Source of the DNA: an uncultured Persicobacter sp.
GTDB taxonomy: Bacteria > Bacteroidota > Bacteroidia > Cytophagales > Cyclobacteriaceae
DNA length: 44,870 bases
Assembly: GCA_947498325.1 (NCBI GenBank)
Contig: CANMKE010000037.1
Span: 1-44,870 of the forward strand
Direction: 5' to 3'
Below the pieces are notes generated by a model. That model was not told the DNA's origin. It did not search any database and saw only the letters and a program-made list of their open reading frames with translations. Below, in pieces: positions 42,781-44,671 of this stretch. The position numbers and the translations under genes are program-made. Positions within the stretch are counted from its first letter, which is position 1, and each line of letters opens with the position of its first letter.

Positions 42781-43977
42781 ATGAAAAGAGTGGTAGTTGG
42801 TTTGTCGGGAGGCGTTGATTCCTCTGTGGCGGCCTATTTACTCAAAGAGCAAGGCTACGATGTAATCGGCCTGTTTATGAAAAATTGGCATGATGATTCC
42901 GTAACGATCAGCGACGAATGTCCTTGGTTGGAAGACTCAAATGATGCCCTAATTGTAGCCCAGAAATTGGGAATCCCATTTCAAACCATTGATTTAAGCA
43001 CGCAGTACAAGGAACGTATTGTGGATTATATGTTCAATGAGTATGAAAAGGGCAGAACCCCAAACCCTGATGTGCTATGTAACAGAGAAATAAAATTTGA
43101 TATATTCTTAAAGACTGCACTGGAGCTTGGTGCTGATTACGTGGCTACCGGACATTACTGTCGTAAATCATCCATAGAGAAAGATGGTGAGCAGGTATAT
43201 CAGTTATTGGCTGGTAAGGATGATAACAAGGATCAAAGTTATTTCCTTTGCCAATTAAATCAGGAGCAATTATCCAAAGCATTGTTCCCTGTTGGTGATC
43301 TTGAAAAACCGGAAGTAAGAAGAATCGCTAAAGAAGCCGATTTGATCACTGCCGAGAAAAAGGATTCTCAGGGTTTGTGTTTTATTGGGAAGGTGCGCTT
43401 GCCAGATTTCCTTCAGCAAAAGCTGAAACCGAAGGCGGGAAAAGTGTATGAGATTCCTGCGGATGCGCCAGTTTTTGAAGCCTATCAAGCCAAAATAAAG
43501 AATGCTGCAAACGAGGAAGAATGGCTGAAAGCCATTGCTGCACCTTTCTTTTTTCATCCGAGTATGGGGAAAGAGGTTGGTGATCATCGTGGTGCACATT
43601 ACTATACTATTGGTCAGCGTAAAGGACTGGGAATCGGTGGAACTGTGGAGCCGTTGTTTGTTATTGATACCAACACGGAATCCAATGTGATTTTCACCGG
43701 ACAGGGAAAAGATCACCCAGGTTTGAAGCGTTTCGGGATTTTTGTGAGCAATGAAGAGACCCATTGGGTTCGGGAAGATTTACGCATGAAGGTCGGAGAG
43801 ATGAAGCGCTTTCAGGCAAGAATTAGATACCGAGAGGATCTTTCATCAGCAACCTTATATCAGAAAGAAGAAGGCCTGTACGTGGTTTTCGATACTGAAA
43901 GAGTAGGGGTCGCTGCCGGGCAATTCGTTGCTTGGTATGATGGCGAAGAACTGATAGGATCAGGGACAATCGGTTAA
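42781..43977 (+). CDS. mnmA: tRNA-specific 2-thiouridylase
   Basis: The 398-aa enzyme installs the 2-thio group on wobble uridine of Lys/Glu/Gln tRNAs. The PP-loop is GLSGGVDSS (residues 8-16). Cys100 ([12 protein letters not shown]) and Cys200 (DSQGLCFIG) are the two catalytic cysteines. ATGHYCRKS binds the nucleotide and the C-terminal beta barrel ends with [18 protein letters not shown]. Sulfur is delivered by cysteine desulfurases, not encoded here. It has a strong Shine-Dalgarno and its own promoter and terminator, so it is a single transcription unit. Confidence 0.97.
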
Positions 43978-43987
43978 AAATATTAAA

Positions 43988-44024
43988 AAAAATAGCCGTG
44001 GGCGTTCCCTAAAGCTATTTTTTA
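43988..44024 (+). terminator. Intrinsic terminator of mnmA
   Basis: AAAATAGC (43989-43996) and GCTATTTT (44014-44021) form an 8-bp stem with a 17-nt loop, followed by a short T-run. Confidence 0.7.
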
Positions 44025-44026
44025 CG

Positions 44027-44304
44027 TATATTTGAATATAGAAAATGACTAAAGATAAATCCTATCAGTGGTCACGTTTTTCAAATCTAACAGTTTTAAT
44101 ATTACCGGGTAAAGCGATTCAGTAAAACCAGGCCTCAACTGAGTTTATCTCAGTCAGTCATCTTCGGAAGGCTGTCAACAGTGGAAGGTTGATCTGGTTA
44201 GCAGCCCAAATCGTGTTATAATAGAGATTTTGATAAAACCTCTCAAAAGCCATTGGTAGGTACCTTATAAAAAGCCATCACCCCTTAATTGGGGTGATGG
44301 CTTT
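44027..44304 (+). ncRNA. Candidate structured non-coding RNA (6S-like?)
   Basis: The TATATTTG box (44027-44034) is followed by a self-complementary unit ending in a 14-bp terminator. CCTATCAGTGG (44061-44071) pairs fully with CCATTGGTAGG (44250-44260), 11 bp with two wobbles. Inside, G-TTTT and CAAATCT (44076-44088) face AGATTTTG and AAAA-C (44225-44239). GCGATT (44114-44119) pairs with AATCGT (44209-44214) and AACCAG (44126-44131) with CTGGTT (44194-44199). Between the second and third helices is an open asymmetric bubble (25 versus 10 nt). Three local hairpins fill the distal end, one with a C(UUCG)G loop (44155-44174). About 201 nt from helix to helix fits 6S RNA; identity is unproven. Confidence 0.5.
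44271..44304. terminator. 14-bp perfect inverted repeat, terminator of the candidate RNA
   Basis: AAAGCCATCACCCC and GGGGTGATGGCTTT surround TTAATT. The plus-strand tail is CATATTTTTA, a broken T-run; the minus-strand tail has five T. It lies between the candidate RNA and the next gene. Confidence 0.7.
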
Positions 44305-44329
44305 CATATTTTTACTGAAATTTTTTATC

Positions 44330-44671
44330 ATGAAGGTATACCAATCCATAGGGTATCGGTTGGCCATGCTCAGCTGGCTTTTGACGGCAGGCTGCATAGC
44401 GGTTAGCATTGTGAATGAAAGTGCCATGTGGCCCATCAACGGATTACTCAGTATCATTTTTATGCTGATAGGTTTAATAGGAGCCGCAAAATACCAGGCA
44501 TTGAAGCAGTTGATTTCAGTCCATCCTCAGTCAGGCATTGGCAAGAAAAGAATGAACACTTTTCTGAAATGGGAATTCCTTATGATCAGCGGTTATGGAC
44601 TCCTCGGGTATTTGTTTTTGGCAATGGCCATCCACAGGACCTTTATCGAAAAGCAGCCTGTTTTTGGGTGA
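44330..44671 (+). CDS. Small membrane protein of unknown function, 113 aa
   Basis: Three hydrophobic segments (about residues 10-28, 32-52 and 82-104 from this start) flank a short basic loop (PQSGIGKKRMN). I do not recognise a family. ATG at 44330 (MKVYQSIGYRLAML) is preferred, since earlier in-frame ATGs lie within or just after the terminator hairpin. It follows the candidate RNA on the same strand. Confidence 0.6.
   Translation: MKVYQSIGYRLAMLSWLLTAGCIAVSIVNESAMWPINGLLSIIFMLIGLIGAAKYQALKQLISVHPQSGIGKKRMNTFLKWEFLMISGYGLLGYLFLAMAIHRTFIEKQPVFG

Follow-up and report, generated by a model that had tools for sequence, protein, structure and literature searches.

The element at positions 44027 to 44304 of the window (the whole 44,870-nt stretch of DNA analysed here) is very probably the Cytophagales homolog of the Bacteroidota 6S RNA. 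We put the probability that it is a 6S RNA gene of a Cytophagales bacterium close to Persicobacter, with its own −7 box and intrinsic terminator, at about 0.93. 6S RNA restrains RNA polymerase by mimicking an open promoter. The assignment is based on homology, structure, covariation, a recurrent promoter box and the presence of a single copy; by analogy with the 6S family, the RNA may bind polymerase, serve as template for a product RNA and have a growth-phase role. Wehner et al. 2014 may already list Cytophagales 6S RNAs, so that no first description is claimed here.

As indicated by the promoter box, the terminator and the genome scans, the element is a free-standing RNA gene of about 200-265 nt. 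Its parts are a TAnnTTTG box, a 12-bp closing helix, a central bubble, an irregular apical arm, a two-hairpin head and a terminator (Table 1), and like 6S RNA it forms a rod of about 200 nt with a closing stem, a central bubble and an apical stem. A sequence-only reading of this DNA had proposed a structured, separately transcribed RNA unit at this place. The structured unit was confirmed by homologs, covarying helices, promoter box and terminator, and separate transcription was supported by the unit's own box, terminators on both sides and varied neighbours; on sequence evidence, this is a single gene that stands by itself and has a promoter and a terminator of its own, as in 6S RNA. The exact TATATTTG box, the 14-bp terminator hairpin, the nested helices and the asymmetric internal bubble of that reading were all recovered, and the pairing of the RNA ends, given as 11 bp, measured 12 bp. 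We also agreed that the element holds no credible ORF: the only ATG frames of at least 20 aa inside 44020-44320 are of 26 and 31 aa, and on this length a small protein was rejected as the explanation.

Table 1. Features of the RNA gene and its upstream context.
Feature	Position	Strand	Basis
Probable mnmA terminator (AAATAGC...GCTATTTTTT), upstream context	43990..44023	+	By eye; not reported by terminator scan
−7 promoter box TATATTTG, consensus TAnnTTTG of Bacteroidota primary sigma factor	44027..44034	+	Exact match
Closing (terminal) helix, 5' strand, 12 bp with 44249-44260	44061..44072	+	Fold; homologs
Helix B ("downstream duplex" of 6S), 5' strand, pairs with 44225-44239	44076..44088	+	Consensus, fold
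Central bubble, 5' strand, conserved AACA	44089..44106	+	Consensus of 20 sequences
Apical arm, 5' strand, irregular helices with 44187-44207	44107..44129	+	Consensus, fold
Distal head: short C-G stem around two hairpins	44133..44184	+	Consensus, fold
Head hairpin 1 (ACTGAG/CTCAGT)	44138..44154	+	Fold
Head hairpin 2	44155..44174	+	Fold
Conserved block AACAGTGGA, base of head	44177..44185	+	Alignment A1
Central bubble, 3' strand; 44208-44215 AAATCGTG is the site of the "−10/−7"-like element	44208..44224	+	Alignments
Helix B, 3' strand	44225..44239	+	Consensus, fold
Closing helix, 3' strand	44249..44260	+	Fold; homologs
Intrinsic terminator: 14-bp stem, 6-nt loop, then CATATTTTTA	44271..44304	+	Terminator scan

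The RNA sits between mnmA and a small membrane-protein gene, all in the same orientation. The downstream gene (44330-44671) is predicted to encode a small membrane protein of 113 aa from the ATG at 44330; it adjoins the RNA in both genomes of the species (G000 and G072) and in no others, and was not found in the flank examined in G001, the other genome of the genus. Such a position between two genes of like orientation would suit a cis-acting element, either a leader or attenuator or a 3' UTR, that belongs to mnmA or to the membrane-protein gene. We tested these two neighbours at 89 loci, most with about 1.5 kb per side. mnmA adjoined the RNA in three genomes alone (G000, G072 and G001), and the downstream gene in just the first two of these. 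Cis-regulation of either gene was rejected because, within these flanks, neither adjoins the RNA outside the genus, and the RNA's own promoter box and the terminators before and after it further argue against such an element, which we regard as highly improbable. The rarity of both neighbours fits an RNA acting in trans.

Homologs were located by BLAST (E ≤0.001), with matches in 49 of 390 family genomes and 20 of 84 genera; a few of the matches were short and may be due to chance. Alignment A1 comprised 20 sequences: the window copy, 18 others from BLAST and locus L036 (genome G005), which entered through a sub-threshold match to RF01685. The covariance model R1, built from A1 (window copy and 19 homologs), gave matches in 137 of the 148 genomes scanned in the family, which cover 79 of 84 genera; 136 genomes had one match, one had two (the second weak) and 11 had none. 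Among 241 genomes drawn from the order, 41 were positive, 25 of the window family (f1) and 16 of other families, and among 247 drawn from the phylum, 38 were positive (7 of the window family, 31 others). A further model, R2, was built from 62 R1 matches and is therefore no independent test; it matched 43 of the 241 order genomes (25 f1, 18 others) and 61 of 198 class genomes, and lost G043, a weak R1 match of 28.3 bits. Both models were run on genomes with strict filters, so that absences are not firm: presence outside f1 is patchy at this setting, whether through loss, divergence or filtering. In named genomes, 52 stretches matched an exact pattern taken from the 3' half of the RNA, with genera including Cyclobacterium, Echinicola, Litoribacter, Lunatimonas and Persicobacter and MAGs including ones labelled Algoriphagus, Cyclobacteriaceae and Spirosoma.

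Two genomes of the class each gave two R2 matches: G882 (C93:5474-5682 and C37:11958-12160, 130.3 and 89.3 bits) and G909 (C3:61111-61305 and C7:46660-46855, 57.3 and 49.7 bits). It is possible that these are paralogous 6S RNAs or mixed assemblies.

Single-sequence folding alone is weak evidence for the structure, and covariation is decisive. Compared with shuffles, the fold had a z of −5.19 with the terminator, a value largely due to the terminator; when this was left out, z was −2.19 and 3 of 200 shuffles were as good. The sequence-only reading had named covariation in related genomes as a check on its helices, and the helices do covary. The RNAalifold consensus of A1 contained 35 pairs, 22 of which had two-sided changes against a shuffle mean of 13.5, with none of 500 shuffles as high. 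The same 500 shuffles gave 79.3% of cells paired and a covariation score of 0.190, as against 92.5% and 0.428 in A1, and none was as high in either measure. When partner columns were slid by 1-3, A1 pairing fell to 29-53%. Five of the eight consensus pairs of helix B change on both sides in A1, and the apical arm pairs GGGT/GCCC in the window where others have GAGT/GCTC. In the 62 sequences aligned to the model (alignment A3), 31 of the 35 pairs had two-sided changes, a count from an alignment fitted to the structure and thus leaning towards it. Conservation of the structure by covarying base pairs, as in 6S RNA, was found in the MAFFT alignment and also in the structure-fitted one.

The closing helix was tested apart from the alignment and forms in 62 of 62 sequences despite differing bases. 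Cognate strands paired with a mean energy of −23.0 kcal/mol compared with −11.8 for strands of different loci. At most 5 of 100 single-base shuffles were as good at any of the 62 loci, and none at 57. Between 0 and 9 of 61 foreign 3' strands equalled the cognate strand per locus (1-9 at 39 of the 62 loci), because related loci share strands.

TAnnTTTG is the sequence read by the Bacteroidota primary sigma factor (PMC7366714). It occurs 46 times on both strands of the window against 44.0 expected by chance, so that a box in one sequence proves little, and the box was rejected as stand-alone evidence. In 38 of 62 homologs, a perfect TAnnTTTG precedes the model start by no more than about 50 nt; the number expected is 2.7 by base shuffling and 1.3 by comparison with other stretches of these loci. 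Both loci of f30, which like f26 is a family of another order, carried a perfect upstream box. Perfect boxes were found upstream of none of the 11 f26 loci in A3, where the best had 3-4 of 6 positions; locus L082 (family f60) likewise had 3-4 of 6.

In Rfam searches, the whole window gave no match above cut-off, and region 43960-44340 at E ≤10 gave 12 matches, none of which reached cut-off or belonged to a 6S family. The 6S-model search that the sequence-only reading had suggested thus came back empty, also in the genome itself, where RF00013 had no match at E ≤0.001. RF01693 had none there at E ≤1 and RF01685 had no match, so that no rival 6S gene was seen in this genome. The window copy fails the gathering scores of RF01685 (85 bits), RF01693 (60 bits) and RF00013 (46.4 bits), and none of 39 distinct family loci reaches any of them. 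RF01685 in 19 relatives, the genome itself included, had one match below cut-off, at 41.4 bits: this is L036 in G005, itself a homolog of the window RNA. Sub-threshold matches lay exactly on the element at 7 of 20 family loci (RF01685 at 5, RF01693 at 2). The best scores among family homologs besides L036 were 35 bits for RF01685, and 34.4 and 29 bits for RF01693. The window 6S RNA has very probably diverged too far in sequence for Rfam to recognise it.

The reverse search linked the window RNA to known families. Among the 31 out-of-family R1 matches of the phylum sample, 23 loci were given to Rfam, 22 of them f26 or f30 loci (of 24). All 22 coincided with RF01685 (20) or RF01693 (2), 12 scoring above cut-off and 10 below (74.0-84.1 bits). 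RF01685 lay at the same place at 20 of 20 tested f26 loci, 10 of them above cut-off. The top scores were 184.4 and 166.6 bits for RF01693 (both f30 loci) and 115.9 bits for RF01685. At L054 (f17), RF01693 scored 35.2 bits. L082 and L063-L066 (families f19 and f16 of the order) had no Rfam match at E ≤1; as divergent R1 finds, they are probably 6S RNAs of further Bacteroidota families.

Since L036 had come in through RF01685, model R3 was built without it, with a structure of 26 pairs from which helix B and the central T-A pair were dropped. R3 matched all 29 loci tried, L036 at 115.6 bits. In 22 whole f26 and f30 genomes, chosen because R1 had matched them, it gave exactly one match in 21, at the same places as R1 (20 of 20 in f26). 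Genome-wide it missed G826, one of the two f30 genomes; both f30 loci were matched when the locus alone was searched. The R3 result indicates that a model from the window's family picks known Bacteroidota 6S RNAs from whole genomes.

These matches bear on the suggestion of the sequence-only reading that the element may be a new RNA family. A family unrelated to 6S would agree with the lack of any Rfam family reaching cut-off in the window, and with a branched head and a AACAGTGGA block that are not textbook 6S. It is contradicted by the models from the window copy and its homologs, whose R1 and R3 matches coincide with 6S-Flavo (RF01685) and Bacteroidales-1 (RF01693), and by the recurrence of helix order and bubble motif, and can hardly be credited. 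The resemblance to 6S RNA noted in that reading is supported by the same homology and by covariation.

6S-Flavo and Bacteroidales-1 were listed in 2010 (PMC2864571), and 6S RNA has been detected in Flavobacterium psychrophilum (PMC9723704). Rfam labels RF01693 "6S-Bacteroidales RNA suggested". A link of RF01693 to 6S function is suggested by this label together with the Bacteroides study (PMC7366714), whose passages on 6S RNA name no Rfam family. The Rfam output assigns no clan to RF01685 or RF01693, though one model links them by homology.

Bacteroidales-1 RNAs, as seen at the f30 loci, resemble the window group: AAACUC../GGAGUUU stands where helix B is expected, the apical arm opens with CCGAG, the 3' bubble carries CUCAAAUCNUGU, and the two-hairpin head lies between GGCGGGCC and GUGGA. 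They differ in that the window closing helix, helix B and head have other sequences and the head block reads AACAGTGGA in most Cytophagales, and the RF01693 model has no match to the window copy at E ≤10. 6S-Flavo agrees in the order of its helices, carries AAAC(U/C)UG in the 3' bubble, and has a U run after the closing helix; unlike the window RNA, 10 of 11 f26 rows are without the two-hairpin head, and the model has no match to the window copy. Canonical 6S RNA (RF00013) of E. coli and B. subtilis is described as rod-shaped and about 200 nt long, with a closing stem, a central bubble and an apical stem (PMC8876501), which the window RNA resembles, whereas the latter has a branched head and a Bacteroidota −7 promoter and is without an RF00013 match.

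In 6S RNA, the 3' strand of the central bubble is described as carrying a −10-like element, the 5' bubble strand and adjoining helix as the product-RNA template, and product-RNA synthesis as the step that releases polymerase (PMC8876501). Both 6S and product RNAs of Bacteroides thetaiotaomicron were detected by dRNA-seq (PMC7366714). In the 20-sequence consensus, the only pair made by the 5' bubble of the window RNA is a T-A (44103:44210); when the single sequence is folded, 44093-44102 also pairs with 44213-44222 within the bubble. On the 3' side, AAA(T/A)CNTG or TAAACNTG was found in 60 of 62 rows. The site AAATCGTG agrees with TAnnTTTG at 3 of 6 fixed positions, and 8 of 11 f26 loci have TAAAC(T/C)TG in the 3' bubble (5 or 4 of 6 positions), the other 3 having CAAAACTTG. 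These letters suggest that the 3' bubble motif may resemble TAnnTTTG, a likeness that is suggestive only, the register of the comparison having been chosen by us. On the 5' side, the conserved AACA adjoins helix B and would lie near the predicted product-RNA start, opposite C44091, from which an RNA beginning 5'-GUUAGAUUUGA is predicted; the 5' strand of helix B would be its template.

If the window RNA acts as other 6S RNAs do, its rod of closing helix, helix B, central bubble, apical arm and branched head would resemble an open promoter. Under nutrient scarcity it would occupy the holoenzyme of RNA polymerase and the housekeeping sigma factor. The polymerase would then use the 5' strands of the bubble and of helix B as template for a short product RNA with the predicted start 5'-GUUAGAUUUGA, and this synthesis would release the RNA and free the housekeeping polymerase.

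A structural 6S homolog could instead work like Ms1 of Actinobacteria, binding core polymerase without sigma and yielding no product RNA. Ms1, compared here by its description only, is structurally related to 6S RNA and bound to RNA polymerase, and is reported to bind the core enzyme (PMC9130861); the weak −7-like bubble motif of the window, 3 of 6, would be in keeping with such a function. However, the window RNA is homologous to RF01685 and RF01693, 6S and product RNAs are reported in Bacteroides (PMC7366714), and the part that is the product-RNA template in 6S, the 5' bubble beside helix B, is conserved. We therefore consider an Ms1-like function unlikely, and a 6S RNA that binds the holoenzyme and directs product-RNA synthesis the preferred reading.

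The sequence-only reading had described three distal hairpins in a head foreign to 6S. Two hairpins were found (Table 1), and a branched head is also part of the Bacteroidales-1 model in the Rfam alignments, which contradicts the second point. In hairpin 1, 5 of 5 consensus pairs had two-sided changes, with 82.1% of cells paired; in hairpin 2 the values were 2 of 3 and 82.5%. About 52 of the 62 aligned homologs have bases at both helices, the rest being f26 (6S-Flavo) loci; of the 11 f26 rows of A3, 10 have an apical arm that ends with no two-hairpin head. The AACAGTGGA block is invariant in A1, as are parts of the bubble. A1 rows were located with the motif AACAGTGG(A/G) or AACAGTGAA, so that the invariance of the block is partly a matter of selection. 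One or other motif is present in 34 of 35 BLAST loci, some from the same genome, the exception being a terminator-only match; AACAGTGGA itself is present in 21 of 27 loci found by R1 alone, outside f26 and f30. The branched head with AACAGTGGA is thus kept in most Cytophagales loci, partly common to Bacteroidales-1 and missing from most 6S-Flavo RNAs.

The AACAGTGGA block lies far from the promoter-like bubble and yet is kept. Tentatively, the branched head and AACAGTGGA might form a second functional module on the 6S RNA, making a specific contact with the sigma factor or polymerase of the Bacteroidota, which are unusual, or with another protein, and could so tune capture or release.

With the gene described here, a Cytophagales family for which Rfam models reach no cut-off (0 of 39 distinct loci) gains a 6S RNA. 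It links 6S-Flavo and Bacteroidales-1, which are separate in Rfam, into a single homologous 6S RNA of the Bacteroidota. If the models were merged, annotation pipelines could name the gene, and its behaviour over the growth phases could be followed in RNA-seq data that already exist.
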